From contig NZ_NJIF01000004.1 of NCBI RefSeq assembly GCF_002209555.1, forward strand, positions 434,001-498,000: a stretch of 64,000 bases of DNA, given 5' to 3'. The notes beneath the pieces are model-generated. The model was not told the origin of the DNA. It did no database searches and worked only from the letters and a program-made list of their open reading frames with translations. Shown in pieces: positions 13,091-39,906 of the stretch; the stretch's first letter is position 1, and the number at the start of each line of letters is the position of its first letter. Position numbers and translations under genes: made by a program. Source of the stretch: Achromobacter insolitus (lineage in GTDB: Bacteria; Pseudomonadota; Gammaproteobacteria; Burkholderiales; Burkholderiaceae_B).

Positions 13091-13114
13091 TTTTCAACAC
13101 GAGTTCCAGCATCC

Positions 13115-23884: not shown

Positions 23885-24856
23885 TCACATCGGCTTCAGA
23901 TCGACCTCTTTGGCGATCTTGCCGAAGGTTTCCAGATCGCTCTTCACTCGGGCCGTGGTTTCGGCCGGCGTCGATACGCGCGGGATCATCGCCAGATCCA
24001 GCAGGCGCTGCTTCATTTCGGGCTTGGCGAATTCACGCGCCAGGGCTTGCTGGATCTTCTCGATGATCTCGTCAGGCGTGCCCTTGGGCGCGGCCAGGCC
24101 AAACCATGCAACCGCCGAAAATCCCTGCAGGCCGGCTTCGGGCGCGGTGGGCACGTCAGGCAGGGCTGCCACGCGCTCCGGGTTGGTGACGAACAAGGGA
24201 CGCACCTTGCCCGCCTTGATAAAGGGCGTCTGCACGCCGGTGTTGTCGAGCACCGCATCAATATGGCCACCAAGCAGATCGTTCATGGCGGGGCTGCTGC
24301 CCTTGTAGGGCACGATGTTGACCTGCATGCCGGCCGCGCGGGCGAACATGAGCTGCGTCAGATGCTGCTGGGTGCCCAGGCCGGCGTTGCCGAACGTGAT
24401 CTTGTTGGGATTCTTACGGCCATAGTCGATGAATTCCTGCAGATTCTTCGCGGGGAATTCGTTGTTCGTGACCACCACGAAAGGCAGGTCCACCAGCACC
24501 GTGATCTGCTTGAAGTCTTCCAGCGGCTTGTAGCGCAGCTTGTAGACGTAGGGATTCACCGCCATCGTGCCGCTGGCGGTAAGCGCCAGGGTGTAGCCGT
24601 CCGGCTCGGCGCGCGAGACGAACTCCGTGCCCAGCACGCCGCCAGCGCCGGGCTTGGCCTCGACGATGGCGGGCTTGCCCAGTTCGGTCTGCAAAGCCTG
24701 CGCCGCAAAGCGAGCCAGCATGTCGGCCGATCCCCCGGTCGCGTATGGCAGAACAATCGTGATCGGCTTGCTGGGATAGTTATCCGCGGCCAAGGCGGGC
24801 GCGGTGATCAAGGCCGCCAGACAGGCAGCGGCCAGAGTTTTCAGATGCTTGACCAT
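23885..24856 (-). CDS. Bug/TctC-family periplasmic receptor
   Basis: This 323-residue protein has a Sec signal (residues 1-23, ending APALA), the opening YPSKPITIVLPYATGGSADM, and the ligand-loop segment SRAEPDGYTLAL, which mark the Bug receptor fold. It binds a carboxylated solute in the periplasm. I chose the ATG at 24856, with a GGGGAAAT ribosome-binding region. It is divergent from the LysR at 24987 and shares its promoter gap, so it is probably regulated by it. It likely supplies substrate for the catabolic operon beginning at 26056. Confidence 0.92.
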   Translation of the reverse strand: MVKHLKTLAAACLAALITAPALAADNYPSKPITIVLPYATGGSADMLARFAAQALQTELGKPAIVEAKPGAGGVLGTEFVSRAEPDGYTLALTASGTMAVNPYVYKLRYKPLEDFKQITVLVDLPFVVVTNNEFPAKNLQEFIDYGRKNPNKITFGNAGLGTQQHLTQLMFARAAGMQVNIVPYKGSSPAMNDLLGGHIDAVLDNTGVQTPFIKAGKVRPLFVTNPERVAALPDVPTAPEAGLQGFSAVAWFGLAAPKGTPDEIIEKIQQALAREFAKPEMKQRLLDLAMIPRVSTPAETTARVKSDLETFGKIAKEVDLKPM

Positions 24857-24953
24857 CAATGATTTCCCCTCGTTGTGTAACAACTGCGCTTGCACCCGGG
24901 GAAGATTAAGCGGTCCCACGTTATATGGCTAATCAACAATTAAAATAGATCTC

Positions 24954-24970
24954 TATCACCAACGTTGATA
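24954..24970. promoter_or_regulatory. Candidate LysR binding site
   Basis: TATCA-N7-TGATA is an exact inverted repeat and contains ATC-N9-GAT, a known LysR-type box layout. It lies just in front of lysR (17 bases before the start) and in the divergent gap with the Bug receptor gene. Confidence 0.55.
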
Positions 24971-24986
24971 ATCACCTGGGACTGCG

Positions 24987-25931
24987 ATGCTGACCTCGAT
25001 GGACCTGAATCTACTGCGCATCTTCGACGCGGTCATGACCGAGCGCAACGTGACGCGGGCGGCTTCCGCCCTGCACATGACGCAGCCTGCAGTCAGCAAT
25101 GCCATCAACCGGCTGAGGCTGACCCTGAAAGATCCGCTGTTCGTGAAGATCCAGGGCGGGGTGCTGCCCACCCAGCGCGCCGAACTGCTGTGGCCGCCCA
25201 TTCGAGATGCGCTGGCCCGCATTGCGGACACCCTGGAACGCAACGATTTCGATCCGGCGCGTTCCGAGGCCGTGTTCCGCATGGCCATGTCCGACTACGT
25301 GGCCGATCAGGTCATCCGGCCGCTATTCGTGGAGCAGCAGAGCGTGGCGCCCAATGTGCGCATACACCTGCATCCCTACTCGCTGGACAACGCCGGCGTG
25401 TTGCTGGAGAAAGGCGAAGTCGACATGGCGGCCGGCGTGTATTCGAATTTCGGTTCATCGTTGCGCACCCTGCCCCTGGAGACCCTGACCTACGTCTGCG
25501 CCATGCGCAAAGGCCACCCGCTGCTGGCGCAGCCGCGCTTCACCCTGGACAGTTTCCTGCGCGCCCGCCATTTGATGGTCAGCCTGCTGGGCACGCCCAC
25601 CCTGATCGACCACGAACTCGCGCCCCATGGCTACAAGCGCAACGTCGTGCTAACCATCAACCAGTTCGCGCTGGCCCCGCGCCTCCTGGCCGAGACGGAT
25701 CTGATCTGCGTGGTGCCACTGAACACGGTGCGCAACAGCCCCTACAGCCATCTGCTGGAGGCGGTCGAGGCGCCCTTTCCGTTCGCGCCGCGCACCGTCA
25801 ATCTGATCTGGCACGAGCGCTCGGACAATATCCCCGCGCATCGCTGGCTGCGCGAAGAGATCCTCAAGGTCTGCCAGGCCCAGGGCATGGTGTTCGATCA
25901 GGCGCAACCGGCCGAATCTCATCCCTACTGA
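24987..25931 (+). CDS. LysR-family transcriptional regulator
   Basis: This 314-residue protein has the typical N-terminal helix-turn-helix (residues about 5-65, MTQPAVSNAINRLR) and the LysR effector domain from about residue 92. The start LNLLRIFDAVMTERNVTRAA resembles the NodD/LinR subgroup, which act as activators with a small aromatic or acidic co-inducer. It sits between the divergent Bug receptor and the same-direction hydantoinase operon, so it is the likely controller of both. The co-inducer is unknown. Confidence 0.93.
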   Translation: MLTSMDLNLLRIFDAVMTERNVTRAASALHMTQPAVSNAINRLRLTLKDPLFVKIQGGVLPTQRAELLWPPIRDALARIADTLERNDFDPARSEAVFRMAMSDYVADQVIRPLFVEQQSVAPNVRIHLHPYSLDNAGVLLEKGEVDMAAGVYSNFGSSLRTLPLETLTYVCAMRKGHPLLAQPRFTLDSFLRARHLMVSLLGTPTLIDHELAPHGYKRNVVLTINQFALAPRLLAETDLICVVPLNTVRNSPYSHLLEAVEAPFPFAPRTVNLIWHERSDNIPAHRWLREEILKVCQAQGMVFDQAQPAESHPY

Positions 25932-25934
25932 CAA

Positions 25935-25978
25935 ATCATTCACGATAATGATAATCCCTGATACCAATCTTTGATTGG
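25935..25978. promoter_or_regulatory. Two inverted repeats in front of the hydantoinase operon
   Basis: ATCATT-N6-AATGAT (25935-25952) and CCAATC-TTT-GATTGG (25964-25978) are both exact. They lie 78-121 bases upstream of the first operon gene, a usual position for an activator site. Which regulator binds cannot be told from sequence. The second repeat might instead be a weak hairpin after lysR. Confidence 0.45.
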
Positions 25979-26055
25979 ACCGAATGATGGGGCGTCAATA
26001 GCATTCTGGTCATCCCACTCCCGGCGCCTTCCGCGCCAGCATCCTGGAGACCAGA

Positions 26056-28131
26056 GTGACCCAGACCGCATCCGCCCCGGGCGCCCGCCGTTTTCGCGTC
26101 GGCTTCGACGTAGGCGGCACATTCACCGACTTCACCTTGCTTGCCGAGCACACCGGCGAATTGCATTACTTCAAGGTGCCTTCGACACCGCATGACCCGT
26201 CCGAGGCGATCCAGACAGGCCTGGCCCATCTGATCCGCGAACATGAGATTGCCGGTTCCGAATTGGCGCACGTGGGCCACGGCACCACAGTGGCCACCAA
26301 TATGGTGATCGAGCGCAGGGGCTCGCGTTGCGCCCTGGTGACGACCCGCGGCTTTCGCGACGTGCTGGAAATCGGCCGGCAGACGCGCCCCCACCTGTAT
26401 GACTACAACGTCATCAAGCCGCGGCCGCTGGCGCCGCGCGAGTGGCGTTTCGAAGTGACCGAGCGCATAGGCGCCGACGGGTCCGTGCTGCAAGCGCTGG
26501 ACGAGGACGAGGTCGTGGCGGTAGCGCGCGAGCTGGCCGCCGCCCGCGTCGAATCCGTGGCCATCTGCTTCATGCACAGCTACCGCAACGACGCGCACGA
26601 GCGCCGCACCCGCGACATCCTGGCCGAGCACCTGCCGGGCGTCTACCTCAGTGTGTCCAGCGAGATCCTGCCGGAGTTCCGCGAGTACGAGCGCATGTCC
26701 ACCACCGCGCTCAACGCCTATGTCGGTCCGCGCATGGCCGGCTATATGCGCAACCTGGTGAGCTCCGTGCGCGGCATGGGCGTGGCGGCAGAGCCCACCA
26801 CGGTGCATTCCAACGGCGGCCTGATGTCCGTGGAGTCGGTGCTGACGGCGCCCGTGCGCACCTGCGTGTCGGGCCCTGCTGCCGGCGTGATCGGCGCCAC
26901 CGAACTGGGCCGCGTGGCTGGCCTGCCCAATCTGATTACGTTCGACGTGGGCGGCACCAGCACGGACGTGTCGCTCGTGGCCGAGCTGCGGCCGCTCTTC
27001 ACCTCCAGCCGGCTGGTGGCCGACTATCCGGTCAAAACCCAGATGGTGGATGTGCATGTCATCGGCGCGGGCGGCGGCAGCATCGCCCGCATCGACGACG
27101 CGGGCGCGCTGAAAGTCGGCCCGCAGAGCGCGGGCGCGGTGCCCGGCCCCATTGCCTACAACCGCGGTGGCCAGGTGGTGACCATCACCGACGCCCACGT
27201 CGTCCTGGGCCGCCTGAATCCGGTCGCGCTGCTGGAAGGCCGGATGGCAGTCCATGCGCGCCAGGCGCGCGAGGCCCTGGAGGCGCAGATCGCCCGTCCG
27301 TTGGGCCTGAGCGTGGAGGAAGCCGCCTACGGCATCCTGCGCATCGCCAACTCCAACATGGCGCGCGCGGTACGCGCGGTCTCTACGGAACGGGGGCATG
27401 ACATCCGCAAGTTCGCGCTGTGCGCCTTCGGCGGCGCGGGCGGCCTGCATGCCGCCGAACTGGCGCGTGATTGCGGCATCGGCACGCTGCTGATTCCTCA
27501 GGAGCCGGGCACCATGTGCGCGCGCGGCATCCTGCTGTCAGATATTTCCATGGACTTCGTGCAAACGCTGATGGCCCACGCCACCGCCAACGGCTGGACG
27601 ACGGTGCAGCAGGCGCTGGAAATCCTGGCCGGCAAGGCGCGCGCCTGGCTGTCCAGCGAGGGCGTCAATGACTCGGACCAGCGCCTGTCCGCCGTCATCG
27701 ACGCGCGCTACCAGGGCCAGAACTTCGAGATCGCCGTGCCGCTGGACGGCATGCAACTGATGCCGCTGGAAGCGTTCGTCGCCGCGTTCAGCGCGGCGCA
27801 CGTGCGCGAATACGGCTACGACGCCGCCGGCCGTCCGGTCGAGATCGTCAACTGCCGGGTCCGCGCCACCGGCCTGGTGCCGCGAGCGCCGCTGGCCAAG
27901 GTCGAGGGCGGCGCCAGCGTGGACGGCGCCATCAAAGAGCGTCGCAAGGTGTACTTCGAGGGTTCGGGCTGGGTGGACACCCCCATCCTGCGCCGCGCCC
28001 TGCTGCCGGTGGACACGCCGGTGCACGGGCCGGCCGTCATCGAGGAAATGAGCTCGACCACCGTCGTGCTGCCGGGCCAGCAGGCCCGCGCCGACGAATA
28101 CGGCAACCTCGTCGTCAACCTCAATATCTAA
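26056..28131 (+). CDS. Hydantoinase A / 5-oxoprolinase alpha-type subunit
   Basis: This 691-residue protein is a HyuA/OplA subunit. Its N-terminal domain has the ASKHA-like phosphate motif FDVGGTFTDFTLL (residues about 17-29) and the HGTTVATNMVIERRG segment. The central region has a second ITFDVGGTSTDVSLV motif. These enzymes use ATP to phosphorylate and open cyclic amides (hydantoins, 5-oxoproline), or carboxylate ketones in the acetone/acetophenone carboxylase branch, always with a HyuB partner. The GTG start at 26056 is only 10 residues before the conserved motif. The partner gene follows 10 bases later. The substrate is uncertain. Confidence 0.92.
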   Translation: MTQTASAPGARRFRVGFDVGGTFTDFTLLAEHTGELHYFKVPSTPHDPSEAIQTGLAHLIREHEIAGSELAHVGHGTTVATNMVIERRGSRCALVTTRGFRDVLEIGRQTRPHLYDYNVIKPRPLAPREWRFEVTERIGADGSVLQALDEDEVVAVARELAAARVESVAICFMHSYRNDAHERRTRDILAEHLPGVYLSVSSEILPEFREYERMSTTALNAYVGPRMAGYMRNLVSSVRGMGVAAEPTTVHSNGGLMSVESVLTAPVRTCVSGPAAGVIGATELGRVAGLPNLITFDVGGTSTDVSLVAELRPLFTSSRLVADYPVKTQMVDVHVIGAGGGSIARIDDAGALKVGPQSAGAVPGPIAYNRGGQVVTITDAHVVLGRLNPVALLEGRMAVHARQAREALEAQIARPLGLSVEEAAYGILRIANSNMARAVRAVSTERGHDIRKFALCAFGGAGGLHAAELARDCGIGTLLIPQEPGTMCARGILLSDISMDFVQTLMAHATANGWTTVQQALEILAGKARAWLSSEGVNDSDQRLSAVIDARYQGQNFEIAVPLDGMQLMPLEAFVAAFSAAHVREYGYDAAGRPVEIVNCRVRATGLVPRAPLAKVEGGASVDGAIKERRKVYFEGSGWVDTPILRRALLPVDTPVHGPAVIEEMSSTTVVLPGQQARADEYGNLVVNLNI

Positions 28132-28141
28132 GGCGAACGCC

Positions 28142-29878
28142 ATGACCACTCCTTCGACCTCGGCTCCCGGCACCGACACTTTCGACCCCATTGAAATGGA
28201 GGTGTTCAGCAACCGCCTGCTGTCCATCACCGAGGAAATGGGCAACACGCTGATCCGCTCCTCGTTCTCGACCAACATCAAGGAACGCAAGGACTGCTCC
28301 GTGGCGCTGTTCGACGCCGCCGGCCGGCTGGTGGCGCAGGCCGCCCACGTACCCGTGCACCTGGGATCGCTGTCCGGCGGGATCGACGCCGTGCTGCGGC
28401 GCTACGGCGCGGCCGGCGTGCGCCCCGGCGACGCCTTCCTGTGCAACGACGCCTATCTGGCCGGCGGCACGCATGCGCCGGACATCACCGTCATCACGCC
28501 CATCTTCCACGAAGGCGTACTGCGCTTCTTCGCCGCCAACATCGGCCACCATACCGACGTGGGCGGCGCGGTCCCCGGCTCTACCTCGCACCATCTGAAG
28601 ACGGTCTGGGAGGAAGGGATCCGGCTGCCGGCCATGCGCATCGTGCGCGAAGGCGAACTGGACATGGACCTGCTGGAAATGATTGCGCACAACACCCGCG
28701 AGCCGGACAACCGGATGCACGACATCCGCGCCCAGATCGCCACCAATGACAAGGGCGCCAAGCTGATGCTGGAACTGGTGCAACAGTCCGGCCTGCAGAG
28801 CGTGCTGTCCGCCATCGACAGCATCATGGTGTACACGGAACGGCGCCTGCGCAACCGCATCGCCCAGCTGCCCGCCGGCACCTACACCTTCACCGAGCGC
28901 ATGGACGATGACGGCATGGGCGGCGATCCGGTCACCATCCAGGCCAACGTGCACGCGCGCGATGGCCAGCTTTACGTGGATTTCACGGGTACCGGCAAGC
29001 AGGCGCGCGGCGCCTTCAACCTGCCTGCCAGCGCCTTGAACGCCAGCGTGTATTTCGCGGTGAAAGCCATGCTCGACCCCGAGCTCATGCCCAACAACGG
29101 CTTGTTCCAGCCGATTACCATCACGGCTCCGGAAGGCACCATCACCAATCCGCGCTTTCCGGCGGCGGTGGGCGCGCGCGTCACCACCGCGCAACGCGTG
29201 GCGGGCACCGTAATTGGCGCGCTGGGCCAACTGCTTCCTCCCGACCGCGCCATGGCGTCGTGCAATGACGTCATGCCCTCCATGCTGTTCTCGGTGCCGA
29301 TGCAGGACGGCAAAGGCACCTTCGTCTATCTGGAAACCCTGGGCGGCGGCGCGGGCGGCCGCGCGCAGGGCGACGGCATGGACGGCATCCAGGTGCACGT
29401 GACCAACACCTCGAACCTGCCCGCCGAAGCGCTGGAGATCGAGTACCCCTTGCTGGTCGAGGAATACGCGCTGGTCAACGACAGCGGCGGCGCCGGCCGC
29501 CACCGGGGCGGCATGGGCATCGCCCGCCAGATCCGGTCGCTGCACGACCAGTTGATCTGCACCATACGCTGCGATGCCGCGCTGTTCGGCGCCGCCGGCC
29601 TGAACGGCGGACTGGCCGGCGGCACCTCGCGCGTCGTGCAGAACCCGGGCCGACCGGATGAACAGCGCCTGGCCAACAAGATCGCCGGCCACCCCTTGGC
29701 CAACGGCCAATCAGTGCGGCTGGAGACACCCGGAGGCGGCGGCTACGGAATACCTGCCGAGCGCAGCGCCGCAGCCATCCGCAACGACGTGCTGGGCGGC
29801 AAGGTCAGCCGGGCCGCGGCCGAACGCGACTACGGCACCGAACGCGTGGCACTCGCGCTGCAAGGAGACGCGGCATGA
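28142..29878 (+). CDS. Hydantoinase B / 5-oxoprolinase beta-type subunit
   Basis: This 578-residue HyuB partner carries the family segments EMEVFSNRLLSITEEMG, SSFSTNIKERKDCSVALFD, CNDAYLAGGTHAPDITV and a metal-binding GHHTDVGG region. With HyuA it forms the ring-opening or carboxylating enzyme. The C-terminus has the common GGGGYGIPAERSAAA ending, in which a Gly-rich tail is typical. It is translationally coupled: its stop overlaps the next gene's ATG by four bases. The N-terminal Thr/Ser-rich lead is short, so the start looks right. Confidence 0.93.
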   Translation: MTTPSTSAPGTDTFDPIEMEVFSNRLLSITEEMGNTLIRSSFSTNIKERKDCSVALFDAAGRLVAQAAHVPVHLGSLSGGIDAVLRRYGAAGVRPGDAFLCNDAYLAGGTHAPDITVITPIFHEGVLRFFAANIGHHTDVGGAVPGSTSHHLKTVWEEGIRLPAMRIVREGELDMDLLEMIAHNTREPDNRMHDIRAQIATNDKGAKLMLELVQQSGLQSVLSAIDSIMVYTERRLRNRIAQLPAGTYTFTERMDDDGMGGDPVTIQANVHARDGQLYVDFTGTGKQARGAFNLPASALNASVYFAVKAMLDPELMPNNGLFQPITITAPEGTITNPRFPAAVGARVTTAQRVAGTVIGALGQLLPPDRAMASCNDVMPSMLFSVPMQDGKGTFVYLETLGGGAGGRAQGDGMDGIQVHVTNTSNLPAEALEIEYPLLVEEYALVNDSGGAGRHRGGMGIARQIRSLHDQLICTIRCDAALFGAAGLNGGLAGGTSRVVQNPGRPDEQRLANKIAGHPLANGQSVRLETPGGGGYGIPAERSAAAIRNDVLGGKVSRAAAERDYGTERVALALQGDAA

Positions 29879-31560
29879 CTGGCCCCCTATCGGGCATGCG
29901 TAGTGGCGGCGAACTGCTGGTCGCGCAGTTGCAGGCGTTTGGCGTCGAGCGCGTGTTCATGGTGCCGGGCGAGAGCTTCCTGCCCTGCATCGACGCGCTC
30001 TACGCGCGGCGCGATGCGATTGAAGCCGTGGTCTGCCGCCAGGAGGGCGGCGCCGCCTACATGGCGGAGGCGCATGGCAAGCTGACCGGCCAGCCGGGCA
30101 TCTGCTTTGTCTCTCGCGGACCTGGCGCCACCAACGCGGCGATCGGCGTGCACACCGCCAGGGAAGACTCCACGCCCATGATCCTGTTCATTGGCCAGGT
30201 CGGCAGCGACACCGTCGACCGCCAGTGCTTCCAGGAAGTGGACTACCGCGCCATGTACACGCCGCTGGCCAAATGGGTCGCGCAGATCGAACGGGCCGAC
30301 CGTATCCCTGAATACCTGGCGCGCGCCTGGGCGATCGCCACGGGCGGGCGGCCCGGACCCGTGGTGCTTGCGCTGCCCGAGGACATGCTGTCCAGTCTCG
30401 CCGGCACCGCGCTGGCCGCGCCGCCCCCGACACCCTGCGCGCGTCCGGCCGACAACGACATGACGCGCCTGCGCACGTTGCTAGAAGCGGCCGACCGGCC
30501 ACTGTTGCTGCTGGGAGGGTCGCGTTGGCCCGCCGCCGCGCGCCAGGCCGTGCGCGATTTCGCGCTGCGCTTCGACCTGCCGGTGGCGACCGCCTGGCGC
30601 CGCCTGGAACTCTTCGACAACGACCACCCGAACTTCGTAGGCCAGGTCAGCGCGAGCATGCCCGCCCACCAGAAGCGCGCCGTCATGGACAGTGATCTGG
30701 TCATCGCGCTTGGCACTCGCCTGTGCGAACCCACGACCATCAACTACGAATGGCTGGCTTCCCCCACCCCGCGCCAGACCCTGGTGCACATCCATCCCGA
30801 CGCCAATGAGATCGGACGGCTGTGCACGCCGGCGCTGGGCATGGTGGCCAGCGTGGAAGGCTTTGCCCAGGCCGCGGCCGAACTGGCGCCGACACCCGGC
30901 TGGCATCCGCGCCGCCGCGGCGCAGACGCCGTGGCCACCGCAGCCCCGCTGCCCCCCACGCCCGGCCCGCTGGACCTGAACGCAGCAGCGCGCCATGTCG
31001 CTGCCACCCTGCCGCCACACTCGTGCGTCACCGTGGGCGCAGGCAACTATGCACTCTACGCGCACCGGCACATTGCCTTCAAAGGGCCCGGCAGCCAGTT
31101 GGCGCCCGCGGTCGGCGCCATGGGCTACGGCCTGCCCGCAGCCATCGCCGCCAAGCTGCGCGATCGGAACGCGACGGTGATCTGTTTTGCCGGGGATGGC
31201 TGTTTCCAGATGACCATGCAGGAACTGGCCACCGCGGCCCAGTACCGCCTGGGCATCGTCGTGCTGGTCTTCAACAATGGGCTTTTCGGCACCATCCGAT
31301 TGCACCAGGAGCGCGCGTATCCCGGCCGCGCGCTGGCCACGGAACTGGTCAATCCGGATTTTGCGCTGCTGGCGCAAAGCTATGGCGGCTTCGGCGCGGC
31401 GGTCGAGCGCACGGAGGATTTCGCGCCTGCCTATGACGCCGCGCTGGCTTACGCGCAAGAACACCGTATGCCGGCCGTCGTGGAACTGCGCTACGACGCC
31501 GACATCATCCTGCCCGACCGCACACTGTCGCAACTGCGCGGGGTGGAGAACGCGGCATGA
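29875..31560 (+). CDS. Thiamine-diphosphate-dependent enzyme (acetolactate-synthase-like)
   Basis: This 561-residue protein has the three-domain layout of the POX/ALS family. The N-terminal pyrimidine-binding domain has the catalytic Glu in VVCRQEGGAAYMAEA. A middle domain follows, and the C-terminal domain carries the thiamine-diphosphate motif GDGCFQMTMQ...NN (near residues 438-465). Family members decarboxylate 2-oxoacids and may ligate the product. Nothing in the gene fixes the substrate, but its place between hydantoinase and a flavin dehydrogenase suggests it handles an oxoacid made by the latter. Both ends overlap neighbouring genes by four bases. Confidence 0.9.
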   Translation: MTGPLSGMRSGGELLVAQLQAFGVERVFMVPGESFLPCIDALYARRDAIEAVVCRQEGGAAYMAEAHGKLTGQPGICFVSRGPGATNAAIGVHTAREDSTPMILFIGQVGSDTVDRQCFQEVDYRAMYTPLAKWVAQIERADRIPEYLARAWAIATGGRPGPVVLALPEDMLSSLAGTALAAPPPTPCARPADNDMTRLRTLLEAADRPLLLLGGSRWPAAARQAVRDFALRFDLPVATAWRRLELFDNDHPNFVGQVSASMPAHQKRAVMDSDLVIALGTRLCEPTTINYEWLASPTPRQTLVHIHPDANEIGRLCTPALGMVASVEGFAQAAAELAPTPGWHPRRRGADAVATAAPLPPTPGPLDLNAAARHVAATLPPHSCVTVGAGNYALYAHRHIAFKGPGSQLAPAVGAMGYGLPAAIAAKLRDRNATVICFAGDGCFQMTMQELATAAQYRLGIVVLVFNNGLFGTIRLHQERAYPGRALATELVNPDFALLAQSYGGFGAAVERTEDFAPAYDAALAYAQEHRMPAVVELRYDADIILPDRTLSQLRGVENAA

Positions 31561-31859
31561 CGCCGCTCCTGCGCCGCGTGTCGGCGCCCGTCTCGCCCGC
31601 GCTGCGGCTGACCTGGAATGGCCAACCGCTGCAGGCCCACGAAGGTGACACCGTACTGACGGCGCTGCTGCTGGCCGCGCAACACCTGCGCGTGACCTTG
31701 GGAGAAGGCGCGCCTCGCGCCGGCTTCTGCCTGATGGGAGCCTGCCAGGATTGCTGGGTGCAGACAGCGGACGGCAAGCGCCTGCGCGCCTGTTCCACTC
31801 AGGCGGAAGACGGCATGGATCTGGTCAGCGCCCAGCCCGGAGAACTTGCATGCAGATGA
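31557..31859 (+). CDS. [2Fe-2S] subunit of opine-oxidase/HcnA-like dehydrogenase
   Basis: This 100-residue protein is a Fer2_4-type ferredoxin. The cluster ligands are visible in CLMGACQDC (residues about 58-66) and the later CSTQ. It matches HcnA, the small subunit of hydrogen cyanide synthase, and the corresponding N-terminal part of opine/octopine/nopaline oxidases. It would pass electrons from the flavoproteins. It overlaps the gene before by four bases and the one after by ten, so it is tightly coupled within the operon. Confidence 0.9.
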   Translation: MTPLLRRVSAPVSPALRLTWNGQPLQAHEGDTVLTALLLAAQHLRVTLGEGAPRAGFCLMGACQDCWVQTADGKRLRACSTQAEDGMDLVSAQPGELACR

Positions 31860-33232
31860 ATCGGCCTGACGATCTGGGCGCGCCGCCCATGGTAGTGGTG
31901 GGAGCCGGCCCCGCAGGCGTGCGCGCAGCGCAAACGCTGCTGCGCCACGGGGTGCGTCCGGTGATCGTGGACGAAGCCGCCCTGCCCGGCGGCCAGATCT
32001 ATCGCCAGGGCGCAGCCCCGCGCGGCAGTGCGCGCCAGCGCTACGGCTTCGAATGGAAGCGCGCGCAAGCCATCCACGCGGCGGGCGCGGACCTGGCAGC
32101 CCGGGCCGACTACCGCGCCGCAACCGCGGTGTGGAACGCCGCGCCAGGCAGCCTGGACCTGATCCGCGACGGCGAACTGGAAACGCTGCCTTACTCGCGC
32201 CTGCTGCTCGCTACTGGCGCCACCGACCGCGTGCTGCCCTTCCCGGGCTGGACACTGCCCGGCGTCTACTCGCTGGGCGGCGCGCAGATCGCGCTGAAAA
32301 GCCAGGGCTGCGTGTTCGGGCCGCGCATTGTGTTTGCCGGCACCGGACCTCTGTTGTATCTGGTTGCCTACCAGTATGCGCGCGCTGGTGCCCAGGTGCT
32401 GGCCGTGCTGGATCAAGCGTCCTTGGGTGCGCAGGTCCGCGCCACGCCCGCGCTGCTGAGCCAGCCCGGCATGCTGGCCAAGGGCCTGTACTACCTGGGG
32501 TGGTTGCGCGCGCACGGCGTATCCGTGCACCACAATGCGCAGCTGGACGCCGCGCAGGGCGATAGCCGGGTCGAGACCGTGCGGGCCACCATCGGAGGCC
32601 AGTCCTGCGCCTTCGCTTGCGACGCCCTGGCGATCGGCCACGGACTGCGCGCGGAAACCCAATTGGCCGACCTGCTGGATTGCGCTTTCGATTTCGACGC
32701 CCGCCAACGCGCCTGGCTTCCGCGCCGCGACCCCGACGGGCGCAGCTCGGCGGCCAGTGTCTACCTGGCCGGAGACGGCGCGGGCATAGGCGGCGCCGTC
32801 ATGGCCGAACTCGCTGGTGAACGCGCGGCCCTGGCCATGCTGGCCGACAGCGGTATCGCCGTCAGCGTCGCCCGGGTCCGGGCGCTGGCCCGCCGGCAGG
32901 CAAGGTGGGCGCGGTTCCGGCGTGGCCTGGATCAGGCCTTTCCCCTGCCCGCCGCACGGTGCGACGACTCGGTCATGGTCTGCCGCTGCGAGGAGGTGCG
33001 CGCGGGCACGCTGCGCGCCGCGGCCGAACAATACGCCATCAATGACCTGAACCGGCTGAAAGCGCTGACGCGCATAGGCATGGGCCTGTGCCAGGGCCGC
33101 ATGTGCCAGGCTGGCGCGGCCGAACTGCTGGCCGGCTGCCGCGGACTGGCGTTGGCGGACATCGGCCGCCTGCGCGGCCAGGCGCCGGTCAAACCCTTGA
33201 ACCTGGCCATGCTCGGCGGGGTGGAACCATGA
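31850..33232 (+). CDS. HcnB/OoxA-like FAD/NAD(P)-binding dehydrogenase subunit
   Basis: This 460-residue flavoprotein has an N-terminal dinucleotide motif (VVVGAGPAGVRAA, residues about 16-28), a second motif in the GTGPLLYLVAYQYARAGA region, and a C-terminal Cys-rich BFD-like [2Fe-2S] domain (VCRCEEVRAGT...GLCQGRMCQ). This is the HcnB/OoxA layout. I chose the ATG at 31850 because GGAG lies 7 bases upstream; an ATG at 31856 also exists. With its neighbours it forms a membrane-linked amino-acid or opine dehydrogenase. Stop and next start overlap by four bases. Confidence 0.9.
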   Translation: MQMNRPDDLGAPPMVVVGAGPAGVRAAQTLLRHGVRPVIVDEAALPGGQIYRQGAAPRGSARQRYGFEWKRAQAIHAAGADLAARADYRAATAVWNAAPGSLDLIRDGELETLPYSRLLLATGATDRVLPFPGWTLPGVYSLGGAQIALKSQGCVFGPRIVFAGTGPLLYLVAYQYARAGAQVLAVLDQASLGAQVRATPALLSQPGMLAKGLYYLGWLRAHGVSVHHNAQLDAAQGDSRVETVRATIGGQSCAFACDALAIGHGLRAETQLADLLDCAFDFDARQRAWLPRRDPDGRSSAASVYLAGDGAGIGGAVMAELAGERAALAMLADSGIAVSVARVRALARRQARWARFRRGLDQAFPLPAARCDDSVMVCRCEEVRAGTLRAAAEQYAINDLNRLKALTRIGMGLCQGRMCQAGAAELLAGCRGLALADIGRLRGQAPVKPLNLAMLGGVEP

Positions 33233-34353
33233 ACCCGCTGAAAACCGAGGTCGCCATCATTGGCGCCGGTCTTGTAGGCGCCAGCGCCGCCCTGGCGCTA
33301 CGCCGCATGGGCGTAGCCACGGCACTGATCGACAGCGGCGCGAGCGGCGCGCGCGCCAGCGGCGTCAACTTCGGCGGCGTGCGCCGGCAAGGACGCTCCA
33401 TCGAACAGCTCTACCTGGCGCAACGCGCGCACGGCATCTGGTCGCGCCTGCCCGAACTCATCGGCACCGATGCGGAATACGTGCGCAGCGGGCACCTGAA
33501 ATTGGCGCGCACGGAATCCGATCTGGACAAACTCCGCGCCTACCGCGACAAGGTAAGCGACTTCGACCTGGGCCTGGAAATCATCGACGCCGCCGAACTG
33601 CGCCGCCGCTTCCCGGCGCTGGGTCCCGGCTTGGCAGGCGGGTCGCTGTGCCCGCAGGACGGCCAAGCCAATCCGCGCCTGGTTGCGCCCGCCTTTGCGC
33701 ATGCAGCCGCCCGGGCTGGCGCCCACCTGCTGGAACATTGCGCCATTACGCAGTCAGATACTCAGGGAGAAGATTTTCTGCTGACGGCGGCCGACGGACG
33801 CCGCATCCGCGCCGCCACGGTCATCAACGCGGCAGGCGCCTGGGGTGCGGCGGTCGCGCGCGGCTTCGGTGATGATCTGCCCTTGCAAGTGAAGTATCCG
33901 ACCATGCTGGTCACCGAACCGCTTGCGCCGCAGATCGGCGTGTCGCTCGGCGTGGAAGGCGGCGGGTTCTATGCCCGCCAGGTGACGCGCGGCAACGTCG
34001 TCATGGGCGGCGGCTATGGCGTCGCCCTGCCCGGCGACCGCAGCCGCCCGGGCCGCGCCGCGTTGGCGGAACTTGGGCGGACAGCTCCGGCGATCCTGCC
34101 CGCCCTGGCCTGCGCCAGCGTCATCCGCTGCTGGTCGGGCATCGAAGGCTACTTCAGCGACAAGAACCCCGTCATCGGCTTCAGCCCCAGGGTGCCGCGC
34201 CTGCTGCATGCCTTCGGCTTTTCCGGCGGCGGCTTTCAGATTGCCCCGGCGGTGGGCGAGGTCATCGCCGAGATGGCGACCGGACGCGGCGGCTTGATGA
34301 TGGCCGAGAAGTTCTCGGTCAGCCGCTGGGACGCGGCCGCCCAGGCAGCCTGA
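33229..34353 (+). CDS. HcnC/OoxB-like FAD-dependent dehydrogenase subunit (DAO family)
   Basis: This 374-residue protein is a D-amino-acid-oxidase-fold flavoprotein. The FAD motif is VAIIGAGLVGASAALALRRMG (starts at residue 7, broken here for brevity), the substrate side includes the FSGGGFQIAPAVGE ending, and the length is right for HcnC/OoxB or glycine-oxidase-like proteins. It would oxidise the C-N bond of an N-substituted amino acid and hand electrons to the FeS subunit. It is the last gene of the six-gene operon. The convergent IclR gene follows 20 bases beyond. Confidence 0.9.
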   Translation: MNPLKTEVAIIGAGLVGASAALALRRMGVATALIDSGASGARASGVNFGGVRRQGRSIEQLYLAQRAHGIWSRLPELIGTDAEYVRSGHLKLARTESDLDKLRAYRDKVSDFDLGLEIIDAAELRRRFPALGPGLAGGSLCPQDGQANPRLVAPAFAHAAARAGAHLLEHCAITQSDTQGEDFLLTAADGRRIRAATVINAAGAWGAAVARGFGDDLPLQVKYPTMLVTEPLAPQIGVSLGVEGGGFYARQVTRGNVVMGGGYGVALPGDRSRPGRAALAELGRTAPAILPALACASVIRCWSGIEGYFSDKNPVIGFSPRVPRLLHAFGFSGGGFQIAPAVGEVIAEMATGRGGLMMAEKFSVSRWDAAAQAA

Positions 34354-34376
34354 TGCGGGCTGGCCGGCGCGCATCA
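34351..34376. terminator. Weak hairpin between convergent genes
   Basis: TGATGCG and CGCATCA pair over a 12-base loop. The hairpin starts at the operon stop codon and overlaps the IclR stop. No T-run is present. Confidence 0.35.
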
Positions 34377-35135
34377 ATTGCGCTTGCTGATCGCTCTTGC
34401 CGCCCGGATCGCCAGCGGCCCCAGTTCCGCGCGCGCGCGCTCCAGCGACCAGCGCGGCTTGGGCACGGAGATGTTCAGCGCGCCTAGCGGATCGCCGTTG
34501 TCGCCATGGATGACGGCTGCCACGTTCAGGTCTCCGGCGTAGAACTCTTCGTCGGCATAGGCGTACTGGTCGCGCCTGGCTTCGTCGATCAGTGCGCGCA
34601 ACGTGGCGAGGTCGGTGGTGGTGCGCGGCGTGTGCTTGACGCAGGTAATGCTGCGCAGCTTCAGATCGAGTTCATCGGGCGGCAACAGCGCCCATAACGC
34701 GCGCCCCGACGCGCTCGCAATGCATGGTATCTGCGTGCCCACGGGCATGTACTCGGGAATATGCCGGGCCGGCGCGACGCGCATCACGAACACCATATTG
34801 TCGCCCTCGGGCACCGCCAGGTTGACGATCTCTCCGCATTCCTGGTTGACCTGGTGCAGCACTGCGTGCGCGTGCTGGAACAAGGGCTGCCGGTACAGAT
34901 AGCTGTAGCCCAGCCCGACGGCCTTGACCGTCATGCTGTAGCGCTTGCTGCGCGGATCCTTGGACAGATAGCCGGTTTTCTCCAAGGTGTATGCCACGCG
35001 CTGCGCCGAGCCGATGGTAATGCCGTTTTCGCGGGCCATCTCCTGCAAGCTCAAAGAGGCGTGGCCGCGGAAGGATTCCAGTACGGCCAGGCCTTTTTCC
35101 AGCGACTGGATCATCAAGGCGGAAGGTTCAGACAT
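34374..35135 (-). CDS. IclR-family transcriptional regulator
   Basis: This 253-residue protein has the IclR layout: an N-terminal winged helix (residues about 7-65, QSLEKGLAVLESFRGHASLSL then NGITIGSAQRVAYTLEKTGY) and a GAF-like effector domain with CIASASGRALWALLP and the DEEFYAGDLNVAAVIHGDN region. IclR proteins often repress or activate degradation operons in response to the substrate. It is divergent from the flavoprotein gene at 35309, with palindromes in the gap. I chose the ATG at 35135; the frame extends to 35249 without family similarity. Confidence 0.92.
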   Translation of the reverse strand: MSEPSALMIQSLEKGLAVLESFRGHASLSLQEMARENGITIGSAQRVAYTLEKTGYLSKDPRSKRYSMTVKAVGLGYSYLYRQPLFQHAHAVLHQVNQECGEIVNLAVPEGDNMVFVMRVAPARHIPEYMPVGTQIPCIASASGRALWALLPPDELDLKLRSITCVKHTPRTTTDLATLRALIDEARRDQYAYADEEFYAGDLNVAAVIHGDNGDPLGALNISVPKPRWSLERARAELGPLAIRAARAISKRN

Positions 35136-35252
35136 GCAGATTCCGTGTGTGTGGCAGGAGCGGATTTTGTCCGCAAAAAACCCGAAAGCGACAAGGGCCC
35201 AGGGAAACCCTACGTTGCCGCCCCGTCCCGCGAGCAGTATAAAAACCAAAAC

Positions 35253-35289
35253 TTATCGATATACGTATATTGTTATCGAATAGCGATAA
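35253..35289. promoter_or_regulatory. Candidate IclR operator cluster
   Basis: The 173-base IclR/flavoprotein gap is strikingly A/T-rich here. It holds TTATCG twice (35253-35258, 35273-35278), a perfect 12-base palindrome ATATACGTATAT (35259-35270) and an inverted repeat TTATCG-N5-CGATAA (35273-35289). The pieces lie 20-56 bases upstream of the flavoprotein ATG. Confidence 0.6.
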
Positions 35290-35308
35290 TCCAACAAATT
35301 GGGCTGCC

Positions 35309-36637
35309 ATGCAAGCGTCTTCCTCTCAAGATCCGGCATCCGCCACCGGTAATCCCGCAACGTCGGCCTCGAACCGGGTAGCGCTGCCGGCTGCCGTCGA
35401 CGTCGCCATCGTCGGCGGCGGCATCATCGGCATCAGTACCGCCTACTCCCTTGCATGCGCCGGGCTTCGGGTCGCCGTGTTCGAAAAAGGCACGCTGGCC
35501 TGCGAGCAATCGTCGCGCAACTGGGGCTGGGTGCGCACCCTGGGGCGCGACCTGCCGGAAGTTCCCCTGGCGCAACGGGCGAACCAGCTCTGGGGCGAGA
35601 TCCAGGACAAAATAGACGTCGGATTTCGCCGCAACGGCATGTTCTACCTTCAGGAAAACGACTCGGACGCGGCGGGCCATCAGGCCTGGATCGACGGCGC
35701 GCGCCAATATGGCGTGGACGCCCGCCTGCTGGATAACCGCAAGTTGCGAAAAATGCTGCCTGCGACCGGGCGCTCCTGGACCGGCGCCATGTACAGCCCC
35801 ACGGACGGGGTGGCCGAACCGCAACTCGCGACGCGAGCCATCGCGACGCTGGCCCGCGCCGCGGGCGCGCAGGTTTTCGAAGGCTGCGCCGTGCGCGGCG
35901 TCGAACGCAGCGCGGGCCGCGTATCCGCCCTGCTGACCGAACACGGCCGCGTGGAAACCCAGGCCGTACTGGTCGCGGCGGGCGCCTGGTCGCGGCTTTT
36001 CTGCGGCAACCTGGGCGCGGATTTCCCGCAATTGAAGGTCCGCGGGTCGGTGCTGAGAACAACGCCTCTCGACACCGGACCGCTGGCCGCGATCAATGGC
36101 AAGAATTTCACCTGCCGCAAGCGGGCCGACGGCGGCTACTCGGTATCGCAGTTCGGCGCGTCGATGGCCGACGTGGTGCCCGACACCTTCCGGCTGATGC
36201 CTCATTTCTTCAGCACGTGGCGAGCCAACAGCGGTTTCGTGCGCTTGCGCTTTGGCAAACGCTTCTTCGAGGAGCTGAAGATCCCGCGCCGCTTTCCGGC
36301 CGACCGCGTGTCGCCTTTCGAGCGGCATCGCGTGCTGGATCCGCAGCCATCCCGGCGCGGTGTCGAGCAAGCCTGGCGCAGGCTGGTCCAGGCGTTTCCC
36401 GCGTTCCGCGAAGCGCGCATCGCGCAGTCCTGGGCGGGATACATCGACGTCACGCCGGACGCGATGCCCGTCATGGACGCGGTGCCCGGCCTGCCCGGCC
36501 TGTACCTGGCCTCCGGCTTTTCGGGCCACGGCTTCGGCATCGGCCCCGCGGCCGGCGAAGCCATGGCGCGATTGATCCAGGGCCAAACGCCGGCAGTCGA
36601 TCTGCACCCATTCCGCTACGGCCGCTACGGCACATGA
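35309..36637 (+). CDS. FAD-dependent D-amino-acid-dehydrogenase-like protein
   Basis: This 442-residue flavoprotein has a DAO-type FAD motif (VAIVGGGIIGISTAYSL, residues about 32-48), the acidic ribose contact in VAVFEKG, an SSRNWGWVRTLGRD substrate segment, and a SGFSGHGFGIGPAAGE ending. It is close to DadA-like dehydrogenases that oxidise the alpha-amino group and pass electrons to the respiratory chain. I chose the ATG at 35309; a TTG at 35270 is possible but lies inside the palindromic region. It is the first gene of a run that continues with a dipeptidase homologue, two Bug receptors and a GGT-family gene. Confidence 0.9.
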   Translation: MQASSSQDPASATGNPATSASNRVALPAAVDVAIVGGGIIGISTAYSLACAGLRVAVFEKGTLACEQSSRNWGWVRTLGRDLPEVPLAQRANQLWGEIQDKIDVGFRRNGMFYLQENDSDAAGHQAWIDGARQYGVDARLLDNRKLRKMLPATGRSWTGAMYSPTDGVAEPQLATRAIATLARAAGAQVFEGCAVRGVERSAGRVSALLTEHGRVETQAVLVAAGAWSRLFCGNLGADFPQLKVRGSVLRTTPLDTGPLAAINGKNFTCRKRADGGYSVSQFGASMADVVPDTFRLMPHFFSTWRANSGFVRLRFGKRFFEELKIPRRFPADRVSPFERHRVLDPQPSRRGVEQAWRRLVQAFPAFREARIAQSWAGYIDVTPDAMPVMDAVPGLPGLYLASGFSGHGFGIGPAAGEAMARLIQGQTPAVDLHPFRYGRYGT

Positions 36638-36702
36638 CGGCCGCCGCCGTCCTGCCGTGCGCCAGCCTCCAACAACTCATCCAACCACAGGGGAATTCTT
36701 TC

Positions 36703-37725
36703 ATGGACAGCCACAGCGCCGATCTGCATCGCCGCGCCACCGTCATCGACGGCCTGGTCTTCTTCAGCGACGGCAGCACCCGCGACATGCTGGCCGGCGG
36801 CGTCAGTGCAATCAACGTCACCGTCAGCGACATGGGCGCGGACTTCGAGCAAGCGCTTCGCGACTGCATGGCCTGGCGCCAGCGCTGCGCCGCGCCGGAC
36901 TCTTCCTGGCTGCTCGTGGAAACGCCAGAGGATATCGTCCGCGCCAAGCAGACGGGCAAGCTCGGGGTCATCATGGGCTGGCAGAACGGCAAGCCGCTGG
37001 GCGACCAGATCGATCGCGTCGTCCTGTTTCATGAACTGGGCATGCGCGTCATCCAGCTGACCTACAACGAAGCCAATCTGCTGGGTGACGGTTGCCTGGA
37101 AAAGCGCAACGCCGGCTTGAGCGACCTCGGCCTGAAAATGGTCGAGGAAATGAACCGCGTCGGCATCGCCATCGACCTCAGCCACTGCGCGCCCCAAACC
37201 TGCCTGGACGCCGCCCATCACAGCAGTAAGCCGGTACTGCTGACCCATGCCAATGCCAACGCGGTGATCAAGCGGCCCCGCAACAAATCGGACGAGGTCA
37301 TCAAGGCGGTCGCCGCGACCGGCGGGGTGGTGGGTTGCAGCATCCATGCATATCTGAGCTGGCGGGGCGACCCGCGCCAGCAACCCCTGCTGTCGGATTT
37401 CGTCGCCAACGTTAAGTACATCGGCGAACTGGTGGGCTATGAGCACGTGGGCATCGGCACGGACTTTCCGTCGGTGGACACCTACGAGGCGGTGCGCCAC
37501 GTGATGGTGATGTCGCGGACCAAATACGCCAAATCGGGCGGCGACTTCTCCGACGCCTTTGGCGACGTGATGGAAGCGCGCTATCCCGTCGAAACCCCGA
37601 CGCCGGCGCAATTCCCCGCCTTCACCCACGCGCTGCACGCGGCCGGACTGACGGACAGCCAGATCCTGGGTGTGCTGGGCGGGAACTTCCAGCGCGCGCT
37701 CGCGCAAGCCTGGGCCGCCGCCTGA
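36703..37725 (+). CDS. M19 membrane-dipeptidase-family protein, noncanonical
   Basis: This 340-residue protein is an M19 (renal-dipeptidase-like) TIM-barrel homologue. The second half keeps the family's His161 (DLSHC), His182 (LLTHAN), the Arg of KRPRN near 191-193 and Asp254 (GIGTDF). The N-terminal zinc HxD motif, normally in DGHND, is replaced by DGLVFFSDG, and the IEGG glutamate is replaced by GWQNG (residues 92-96). The two-zinc site may therefore be altered and the substrate may not be a dipeptide. It lies in the middle of the flavoprotein-to-GGT run, 66 bases after the flavoprotein. Confidence 0.85.
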   Translation: MDSHSADLHRRATVIDGLVFFSDGSTRDMLAGGVSAINVTVSDMGADFEQALRDCMAWRQRCAAPDSSWLLVETPEDIVRAKQTGKLGVIMGWQNGKPLGDQIDRVVLFHELGMRVIQLTYNEANLLGDGCLEKRNAGLSDLGLKMVEEMNRVGIAIDLSHCAPQTCLDAAHHSSKPVLLTHANANAVIKRPRNKSDEVIKAVAATGGVVGCSIHAYLSWRGDPRQQPLLSDFVANVKYIGELVGYEHVGIGTDFPSVDTYEAVRHVMVMSRTKYAKSGGDFSDAFGDVMEARYPVETPTPAQFPAFTHALHAAGLTDSQILGVLGGNFQRALAQAWAAA

Positions 37726-37742
37726 ATCCATAGGAAATCACC

Positions 37743-38723
37743 ATGAACATGCGTATTCACGGCTACTTCACCGCCGCCCTCGCCCTTGCCGGCGCGGCCA
37801 TCGCCGCGCCGATGTCCGCGGCTGCCGCCCCCGCCTATCCTGCCCATGCGGTCCACATCATCGTGCCTTACCAGGCAGGAGGGTCCACCGACATCGTGAT
37901 CCGCAAATTCGCGGAGCTCGCCGCCCCCGAACTGGGCCAGCCCATTGTCATTGAAAACCGCGGCGGAGCTGGCGCAACCATGGGCGCGCGAGCGATCAAG
38001 ACCGCGCGTCCCGACGGCTACACCCTGGCCGTGCTGCCCAGTCCGGTCTACCGGATGCCCCACATCCAGGACATGGGCTACGACCCGACGCGCGACTTCA
38101 CCTACGTCATGATGCTCAGCGGCTATACGCTCGGCGTGGCTGTGCCTGCGAGCTCCCCGCACAAGACCTGGGCCGAGTTCATCGGCTATGCCAAGCAGCA
38201 CCCCAATGAAGTGACCTACGGCACGGCCAGCGTCGGCAGCGCCTCCAACGTGATGATGGAAGAGATCGCCGGGCGCAACGGCGTAACGTGGCGCCATATC
38301 CCCTACAAGGGAGAATCCGAAGTGCTGACCGCGGTGATGGGAGGCCAGGTGACGGCGTATGCCGGATCGACCACCGTGCAGCCGCTGGTGCAGTCGGGCA
38401 AGATGCGGATGCTGGTGACCTGGGGCGAACAACGCAGCGCCCAATATCCCGACACGCCCACCTTGCACGAGCTTGACGGCACGCCGCCGGCCAACGCGCC
38501 TTTCGGGATCGCTGGTCCCCAAGGCATGCCGCCAGCCGTCGTCTCCAAGCTGCATGCCGTCTTCAAGCATGTGGCGGAATCGGACGCCTTCAAACAGATC
38601 CTGACTCAGTACGGGCAGGAACTGGTCTACATGGACGGCAAGGACTACGCGGCCTATGCCGCCCAGCAGTACGCATTGGAAGCGGAGATTGTCCGCAAAC
38701 TGGGACTGGCCGCGAACAAATAG
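37743..38723 (+). CDS. Bug/TctC-family periplasmic receptor
   Basis: This 326-residue protein has a signal peptide (residues 1-28, ending SAAAA), the Bug opening YPAHAVHIIVPYQAGGSTD, and the TARPDGYTLAVLPS ligand loop. It would bind a carboxylated ligand in the periplasm. It follows the dipeptidase homologue by 17 bases, so they are probably one transcript. A second Bug receptor gene follows 121 bases later in the same direction. No membrane components of a TctAB pump are linked. Confidence 0.92.
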   Translation: MNMRIHGYFTAALALAGAAIAAPMSAAAAPAYPAHAVHIIVPYQAGGSTDIVIRKFAELAAPELGQPIVIENRGGAGATMGARAIKTARPDGYTLAVLPSPVYRMPHIQDMGYDPTRDFTYVMMLSGYTLGVAVPASSPHKTWAEFIGYAKQHPNEVTYGTASVGSASNVMMEEIAGRNGVTWRHIPYKGESEVLTAVMGGQVTAYAGSTTVQPLVQSGKMRMLVTWGEQRSAQYPDTPTLHELDGTPPANAPFGIAGPQGMPPAVVSKLHAVFKHVAESDAFKQILTQYGQELVYMDGKDYAAYAAQQYALEAEIVRKLGLAANK

Positions 38724-38844
38724 TCCGGCAGGGTCCGACGGCGCCGCCGCGGCCGGGACCACCCCGGCCTGCGGCCGCGCTGGAACCGACAACAGCCGAC
38801 ATCCGCCACGGTATCGGCCCGCAAGAAGAGTCCAGGAGATATCC

Positions 38845-39855: not shown

Positions 39856-39906
39856 TTCTTTGAACCCGCACAGGCAAGCGGGAACCGCTTGCGACCGGAG
39901 ATTTCG

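Follow-up and report, generated by a model that had tools for sequence, protein, structure and literature searches.

A Six-Gene Unit Joining HyuAB, a Thiamine-Diphosphate Enzyme and an HcnABC-Type Flavoenzyme in Achromobacter insolitus: A Possible Lactam-Opine Pathway

The 64,000-nt stretch of Achromobacter insolitus DNA analyzed here (contig NZ_NJIF01000004.1, positions 434,001 to 498,000; hereafter the window) carries six enzyme genes in a row on the plus strand, ordered HyuA, HyuB, a thiamine-diphosphate (ThDP) enzyme and the HcnA-, HcnB- and HcnC-like subunits of a flavoenzyme (26056..34353; Table 1). The gene set, its tight packing and the motifs of its products are seen directly in the window, and comparison of genomes shows that HyuAB recurs in the neighborhood of HcnABC-type genes. 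In our judgment there is about an even chance that these genes make up a catabolic unit controlled by the adjoining LysR-type regulator, in which HyuAB would open a lactam, HcnABC would cleave a C–N bond and the ThDP enzyme would process a 2-oxo acid. According to this scheme, a TctC-type protein would bind an anionic substrate outside the cell, HyuA would activate the lactam amide with adenosine triphosphate (ATP), and the metal site of HyuB would hydrolyze it. The substrate would most likely be an N-substituted 5-oxoproline, i.e., a ring-closed opine-like N-substituted glutamate. The alpha-beta-gamma complex of HcnABC type may then oxidize the C–N bond of the opened secondary amine and pass the electrons to the respiratory chain; an amino acid would be released together with either a 2-oxo acid or an aldehyde. 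The ThDP enzyme may decarboxylate, or ligate, the released 2-oxo acid. We infer LysR control, the transport role, the class of lactam, the order of the steps, the electron acceptor and the ThDP reaction from the sequences.

An earlier, sequence-only reading of this DNA had described the six genes as one coupled unit ending at 34353. This description was borne out: all open reading frames (ORFs) lie at the place and on the strand claimed, and the recomputed junctions show a single gap among the five, of 10 bases, between the stop of HyuA (28131) and the start of HyuB (28142). The HyuB/ThDP, ThDP/HcnA and HcnB/HcnC genes each overlap by 4 bases, and HcnA/HcnB by 10 bases from the ATG at 31850 or by 4 from the ATG at 31856. 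GGAG is present 5′ of the HyuA, ThDP, HcnA and HcnB genes, and Pfam and NCBIfam assignments agree with all six gene identities. Three terminator-like sites were predicted, a count no higher than in shuffled sequences. On comparative grounds the functional unit appears to reach further left, to the LysR gene and the divergent gene for the TctC-type binding protein; no transporter permease gene was found in it.

Table 1. Features of the unit, with positions in the window
Feature	Position	Strand	Assignment and motifs
TctC/Bug-type periplasmic binding protein	23885..24919	-	PF03401, 246 bits; divergent from LysR
Possible LysR-type box TATCA-N7-TGATA, Bug/LysR gap	24954..24970		Sole mismatch-free match in the window
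LysR-type regulator	24987..25931	+	PF00126 and PF03466
LysR-HyuA intergenic stretch	25932..26055	+	Dyad CCAATC-TTT-GATTGG (window sequence) in a conserved block, ATTCA...TGATAA pair; 17-locus alignment
HyuA, ATP-binding subunit, GTG start	26056..28131	+	PF05378 (Hydant_A_N), PF01968 (Hydantoinase_A), PF19278
HyuB, metal-site/hydrolytic subunit	28142..29878	+	PF02538 (Hydantoinase_B), 597 bits
ThDP enzyme, PRK08199 subfamily	29875..31560	+	PF02776/PF00205/PF02775
HcnA-like/gamma subunit, [2Fe-2S] protein	31557..31859	+	PF13510 (Fer2_4); C58-X4-C63-X2-C66-X12-C79
HcnB-like/alpha subunit, flavin adenine dinucleotide (FAD) and BFD-type [2Fe-2S]	31850..33232	+	PF07992 (Pyr_redox_2) and PF04324 (Fer2_BFD); GxGxxG at 18
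HcnC-like/beta catalytic subunit, DAO family	33229..34353	+	PF01266, 222 bits; GxGxxG at 12, RCW at 300

A scan of named genomes with a HyuB profile yielded 54 loci, with the closest HyuB matches (95–97% identity) in Achromobacter; 16 loci from Achromobacter or Bordetella were compared together with the window. All 17 have the TctC-LysR-HyuA-HyuB arrangement, with identities of 75–100% over the matched parts for the TctC-type orthologue and 86–100% for LysR. The six enzyme genes are complete in 11 loci, which indicates that their arrangement is not due to chance. At locus L067 (Bordetella genomosp. 2; loci, genomes and contigs are numbered with L, G and C) HyuB is directly followed by HcnA and the ThDP gene is the only absentee among the six. 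Four loci (L071, L073, L075 and L098) carry HyuAB without the ThDP-HcnABC genes, and in L062 the contig ends inside the unit. Among 43 genomes of the genus, 11 have an orthologue of the ThDP enzyme (at least 84% identity), and exactly these 11 also have one of HcnC (at least 82%); in G001, one of the 11, the ThDP gene is split over two contigs. From the 17-locus comparison, HyuAB with the regulator and the binding protein therefore appears as a stable core, to which ThDP-HcnABC is attached as a block. Within the searches made, the exact six-gene set was met solely in Achromobacter and Bordetella. A phylum-wide HyuB search, in which the best three candidates per genome were scored, found matches at E 1e-110 in at least 6 genomes out of 398 (that of the window counted), a figure that is no gauge of rarity.

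To assess the association of HyuAB with HcnABC-type genes, HcnB was used as the sole criterion for choosing loci, in 250 genomes from the window's order and in 240 from the class to which genome G779 belongs (presumed Alphaproteobacteria). With the best six candidates per genome, this gave 117 HcnB matches (41 in the order, 76 in the class), and 114 loci after removal of the window's own match, its orthologue in G023 and a second match in one locus. An HcnC-type match was also present in 108 of these; some contigs were short and L259 is a half-stretch. HyuA or HyuB was found within flanks of up to 10 kb in 15 of the 114 loci, and in 8 of the 15 HyuAB belongs to the window's clade (at least 57% identity to one member). 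The HyuA density was determined from the best 14–15 candidates in each of 156 genomes belonging to this order and class, so that for the genomes richest in HyuA it is a minimum. It predicts 1.2 linked loci when all genomes are considered, 2.3 for HcnB-positive genomes and 2.8 for enlarged windows. Some linked loci are related: L149 and L167 form one cluster, a single genus (g13) contributes L152, L155, L156 and L158, and L162 and L149/L167 come from the window's genus. Counted as 14 clusters, the excess has P values of 6e-11, 1.5e-7 and 1.7e-6 under the three expectations, and counted as about 11 lineages, of 7e-8, 2.8e-5 and 1.8e-4. The HyuAB partners fall into three separate clades of the DAO-subunit tree, and in the HyuB tree HcnB-linked loci are spread over several branches, with a minimum of nine changes. 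Genome comparison thus supports a coupling of HyuAB and HcnABC, and the HyuAB-HcnABC part of the sequence-only reading recurs above expectation.

L149/L167 (genome G024, contig C23) belongs to the window's genus, but its genome lacks the window-type operon. A single stretch there contains HcnABC, LysR, a TctC-type protein, HyuAB at 60–62% identity and a second HcnC-HcnA-HcnB-HcnC set. In a further pairing, L145 (genome G365, contig C38), HcnABC shares a stretch with a TctC-type protein and a HyuA-HyuB pair of another clade (34–38%).

Relatives of this arrangement were also seen on plasmids. Among plasmid records, 24 carry HyuB relatives at 50–64% identity, tumour-inducing (Ti) and At plasmids among them; those of the Ti and At plasmids (50–56%) stand with DAO, HcnA and HcnB genes on pTiS4 and pAt2788b. 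The putative opine region of pTiS4 and pTi_CFBP2681 (DAO-HyuA-HyuB // RidA-HcnB-HcnA, LysR, ABC transporter) shares with the window HyuAB (HyuA 56%, HyuB 55%), the three-part DAO/alpha/gamma flavoenzyme and a LysR gene; RidA-HcnB-HcnA run opposite to DAO-HyuA-HyuB. Yet it lacks the ThDP enzyme, has RidA and an ABC transporter where the window has the TctC-type protein, and its DAO subunit (about 25%) is of another clade. On pAt2788b (HcnA-HcnB-DAO-HyuA-HyuB-ABC, then an octopine/nopaline-dehydrogenase-like gene) HyuAB and the three HcnABC-type genes likewise all run in one direction (HyuB 52%), but with HcnABC ahead of HyuAB, without the ThDP enzyme and with HcnC at 32%. Plasmids of Thioclava, Salipiger and Shinella combine HyuAB and HcnABC-like sets similarly to pTiS4 and pAt2788b. 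On pTiChry5, the neighbors of HyuAB are a SIS-domain protein and a fructoselysine kinase; HcnB was not found there. In Azospirillum (L054) and A. leguminum (L117) HyuAB lies with ABC transporters and no HcnB.

In available excerpts of the literature, HyuAB has been proposed to open succinamopine and succinopine lactams on pTiEU6 (PMC6733357) and rideopine lactam on pTiS4/pTiAB2-73 (PMC8554961), and a ‘lactamase/hydantoinase’ is mentioned likewise (PMC10410297). On pTiEU6, the succinamopine region (sacEFGH, hyuAB and asparaginase in that order; PMC6733357, excerpts) has Nox/Oox-type dehydrogenase genes near hyuAB, but no ThDP enzyme, and includes asparaginase and ABC transporters. As its HyuB belongs to another clade (30–31%), this analogy would be one of function and not of descent. 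In kind, the gene set of the window resembles the one expected of a Ti region serving a lactam opine, with HyuAB, a Nox/Oox-type dehydrogenase and a regulator, the import part being a binding protein only. By comparison, the gene pairing proposed for lactam opines on Ti plasmids appears on Achromobacter and Bordetella contigs with an added ThDP enzyme and TctC-type protein. Among the papers that our literature searches listed, we saw none describing the six-gene set in these two genera. The earlier remark that no named pathway with this exact set is known has to be narrowed in view of the proposals for lactam opines, which on pTiEU6 concern HyuAB beside Nox/Oox-type genes (PMC6733357, excerpts).

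A wider reading, which we put forward tentatively and regard as possible but not the likelier case, is that Achromobacter and Bordetella have a chromosomal lactam-opine pathway of HyuAB, HcnABC and a PRK08199 decarboxylase, and that HyuAB with HcnABC forms a module that handles ring-closed amino-acid conjugates in general, the Ti opine systems being only special cases. If true, this would give a testable function to a clade of HyuAB and to the HcnABC-type enzyme, which the plasmid records examined annotate mostly just as an oxidoreductase, if at all. It would also mean that ring-closed amino-acid conjugates nourish bacteria far from crown galls. The HyuAB and HcnABC-type pairing could be used to find more such pathways.

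The motifs of HyuAB agree with an ATP-dependent ring opening. HyuA has DVGGTFTD at position 18 and DVGGTSTD at 297 (phosphate) and GAVPGP at 360 (adenosine); in HyuB, D51, H111, D114 and H136 align with D41, H99, D102 and H124 of CapB, and all four metal ligands are invariant in 13 aligned sequences. The same ATP- and metal-site motifs occur in the caprolactamase CapAB of Pseudomonas jessenii, with DAGGTFTDF and DMGGT (phosphate) and GxxPGP (adenosine) in CapA (PMC8453981, excerpts). By these motifs HyuAB would fit an ATP-dependent lactamase. The best NCBIfam matches are likewise caprolactamase CapA (569.9 bits) and CapB (252 bits), as expected if HyuAB opened a lactam without amino-acid character, similar to caprolactam or valerolactam, with the remaining genes forming a separate amine pathway. 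Both scores, however, are far under the curated equivalog cut-off of 1000, so HyuAB was rejected as a caprolactamase, and the recurrent neighbors of opine-dehydrogenase type fit amino-acid conjugates better; we find this explanation quite improbable. It is very improbable, in our view, that HyuAB is a carboxylase resembling those for acetone and acetophenone: it is distantly homologous to subunits of these enzymes, but the unit holds no further carboxylase subunit gene, the scores (303, 217 and 137) fall far short of the cut-offs (1500, 1250 and 1500), and HyuAB scores higher with hydrolases. The nearest solved structure for both subunits is the N-methylhydantoinase 7hk5, followed by 6yra (chain A for HyuA). 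The latter is listed as 5-oxoprolinase/hydantoinase and is taken here as CapAB, because its chain A has the CapA loop quoted in PMC8453981 (excerpts).

The HyuAB family also includes 5-oxoprolinases. HyuAB could thus be an ordinary 5-oxoprolinase (L or D), with HcnABC dehydrogenating glutamate (possibly D-glutamate) and the ThDP enzyme acting on 2-oxoglutarate, in a salvage of gamma-glutamyl compounds or pyroglutamate, and the next cluster in the window does have a gamma-glutamyltranspeptidase, an M19 dipeptidase, a DAO and TctC-type proteins. This cluster, however, adjoins the operon in only some loci (L045 and L052). Moreover, a gene of the PxpA family (PF03746), which we take to be the other 5-oxoprolinase type, was found in all 43 genomes of the genus, so that plain 5-oxoproline is probably already covered and is a less likely target of HyuAB. 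In the alignment, HcnC has a Glu in the GLR segment at the position of the glycine oxidase Arg that binds the substrate carboxylate. We consider the salvage route rather unlikely. Given the ubiquity of PxpA and the lactam-opine proposals for Ti plasmids, we favor an N-substituted 5-oxoproline as the substrate.

The three remaining enzyme genes encode the flavoenzyme. The only small stand-alone Fer2_4 ORF of the genome is the HcnA gene of the operon. HcnC resembles sarcosine and glycine oxidases, and its closest solved structure is 1y56_B, deposited as a sarcosine oxidase and known as the beta subunit of an archaeal L-proline dehydrogenase. This resemblance, together with the 7hk5 match of both Hyu subunits, would suit an ATP-dependent hydantoinase, with HcnABC oxidizing the N-substituted amino acid left after decarbamoylation, as in the route from creatinine and N-methylhydantoin to sarcosine. 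Such a route is unlikely in our estimate: from the TctC gene through HcnC the window has no carbamoylase-like gene (the rest of the genome was not searched), the relatives leave no room for one there, and none is annotated in the five HcnABC-linked plasmid stretches that carry annotation (L115, L118, L119, L123 and L124).

Further features agree with an opine dehydrogenase, as the lactam pathway assumes. Plasmid records with an HcnB relative number 366 (143 from Agrobacterium), and among the best 60 of these two are annotated as opine oxidase subunit OoxA, to which the HcnB-like protein is 36.5% identical. The subunit genes stand in tandem in gamma-alpha-beta order, as reported for Burkholderia thailandensis. 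The order also equals the A-B-C of hcnABC, and the three-subunit architecture is the same, as would be the case if the enzyme made hydrogen cyanide from glycine. We regard this as scarcely credible, since the genes are linked to those for HyuAB, LysR and a binding protein and since transporter genes adjoin several close HcnABC relatives; the doubt that the sequence-only reading cast on a cyanide role is plausible. No model named Hcn is among the NCBIfam matches listed for the operon proteins. Flavin-containing opine dehydrogenases are characterized by GxGxxG in alpha and beta, Cys-X4-Cys-X2-Cys-X11-12-Cys in gamma and Arg-X-Trp in beta (PMC4575208, excerpts). By these motifs and its three subunits the enzyme can be likened to OdhABC of Pseudomonas putida and Bradyrhizobium japonicum (PMC4575208, excerpts).

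The ThDP enzyme scored 749.6 bits with NCBIfam PRK08199 (cut-off 539), a subfamily named without a function. In its RQEGGAA motif at 55, Glu57 aligns with the Glu of acetolactate synthase, and GDG...NN lies at 440. Acetolactate synthase (TIGR00118, 317.8 bits vs. a cut-off of 538.35) and 5-guanidino-2-oxopentanoate decarboxylase (PRK07524, 245.8 vs. 500) were rejected. Glyoxylate carboligase, which is not known to have a catalytic Glu at the ThDP-activating position, was rejected on account of Glu57. The sister clade in the ThDP tree consists of six rows. The three neighborhoods examined each contain an aldehyde dehydrogenase together with a hydrolase annotated as Zn-dependent or M20, that of Paraburkholderia also an FAD oxidoreductase and RidA, and these neighbors would fit a 2-oxo acid decarboxylase giving an aldehyde. 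On this comparison the enzyme is probably a 2-oxo acid decarboxylase, and the pathway, if true, suggests a role for PRK08199 enzymes. Seven plasmid ThDP loci were examined out of 179 records. Three of them, on Rhizobium and Pararhizobium plasmids (L122, L128 and L129), have the order HyuA-HyuB-aminotransferase-NAD(P) oxidoreductase-FAD oxidoreductase-ThDP, with ThDP enzymes 49–50% identical to the window's. They differ in a HyuB of another clade (31%), in the aminotransferase and in the lack of a three-subunit HcnABC. Here HyuAB and a PRK08199-like ThDP enzyme apparently came together independently. Literature searches for HyuAB together with a ThDP enzyme found no paper on the two; the one long review listed (PMC12857756) lacks the term ‘hydantoinase’ and names Achromobacter and Bordetella once each.

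Several of our results weigh against a lactam pathway of this coupled kind. HyuAB is absent from 99 of the 114 HcnB loci. Nor was it seen in the 20-kb stretches of L137, L138 and L139, which hold the nearest HcnABC beyond the orthologous set (HcnC 58–65%), or in L053, L055, L056 and L041, which hold the next nearest (HcnC about 54–55%) beside ABC transporters. As HyuAB stands alone in 4 of the 17 Achromobacter and Bordetella loci, it can act without HcnABC. The DAO partners on Ti and At plasmids are distant from the window's HcnC (25–32%). In the HcnB tree, for which four unlinked rows were sampled, HyuAB linkage changes once; with so few unlinked rows, this tree alone does not show repeated recruitment. 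When loci were contrasted by HyuB identity, HcnB linkage was seen in 7 of 19 near vs. 1 of 15 far loci, a weak difference (p = 0.053). Without the purposely fetched pTiEU6 p was 0.013, and with loci of the blind scan only it was 0.48 (2 of 11 near vs. 0 of 11 far). Because of this weakness we relied on the HcnB-anchored test. The CXC-X33-CX4C spacing of HcnB (at 378) departs from the alpha-subunit motif of OdhABC, printed as Cys-X-Cys-X15-20-Cys-X4-Cys (PMC4575208, excerpts); with X32, the corresponding subunits on pTiEU6 and pTiS4 are outside the printed range too. The operon has no aldehyde dehydrogenase, the expected partner of a decarboxylase. ThDP genes occur near only 3 of the 114 HcnB loci (27, 28 and 52% identity to reference sequences), none of them with HyuAB. 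As L067 also lacks the gene, the ThDP step stays a guess and is the least certain part of the scheme. The flow claimed by the sequence-only reading is still the order of steps with the best support; within it, ring opening followed by C–N oxidation was backed by comparison, and the ThDP step was not.

Separately, L041, L053, L055, L056 and L144 share a conserved cluster of IclR, ABC transporter, HcnABC and binding-protein genes without HyuAB (HcnC 54–55% where measured).

Upstream of the enzymes, the LysR-HyuA intergenic stretch is the probable promoter region of hyuA. A single sigma-70-like match at 25928-25955 was set aside, since shuffled sequences yield as many. For the possible LysR-type box, ATCA...TGAT half-sites align across the 17 loci. 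With two mismatches allowed, the pattern occurs 7 times in the window vs. 4.83 expected, and 17 of 100 shuffles reach 7, so that only the exact match carries meaning. A LysR relative at 48% identity lies near HyuAB in the Caballeronia locus L076. Among the closest Achromobacter relatives LysR is 98–100% identical, exceeding the conservation of the adjacent enzymes.

Downstream, the cluster at 34374-41670 consists of an IclR gene (minus strand), a DAO oxidoreductase, an M19 dipeptidase, TctC-type binding proteins and a gamma-glutamyltranspeptidase. We rejected it as part of the unit, as it stands beside the operon in some relatives only: it adjoins in L045 and L052 and not in L042, L043, L044, L046, L050 and L051. 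A second pair resembling its binding protein and transpeptidase (38656-41670; 39 and 31% identical) lies at 12116-14710 of the window.

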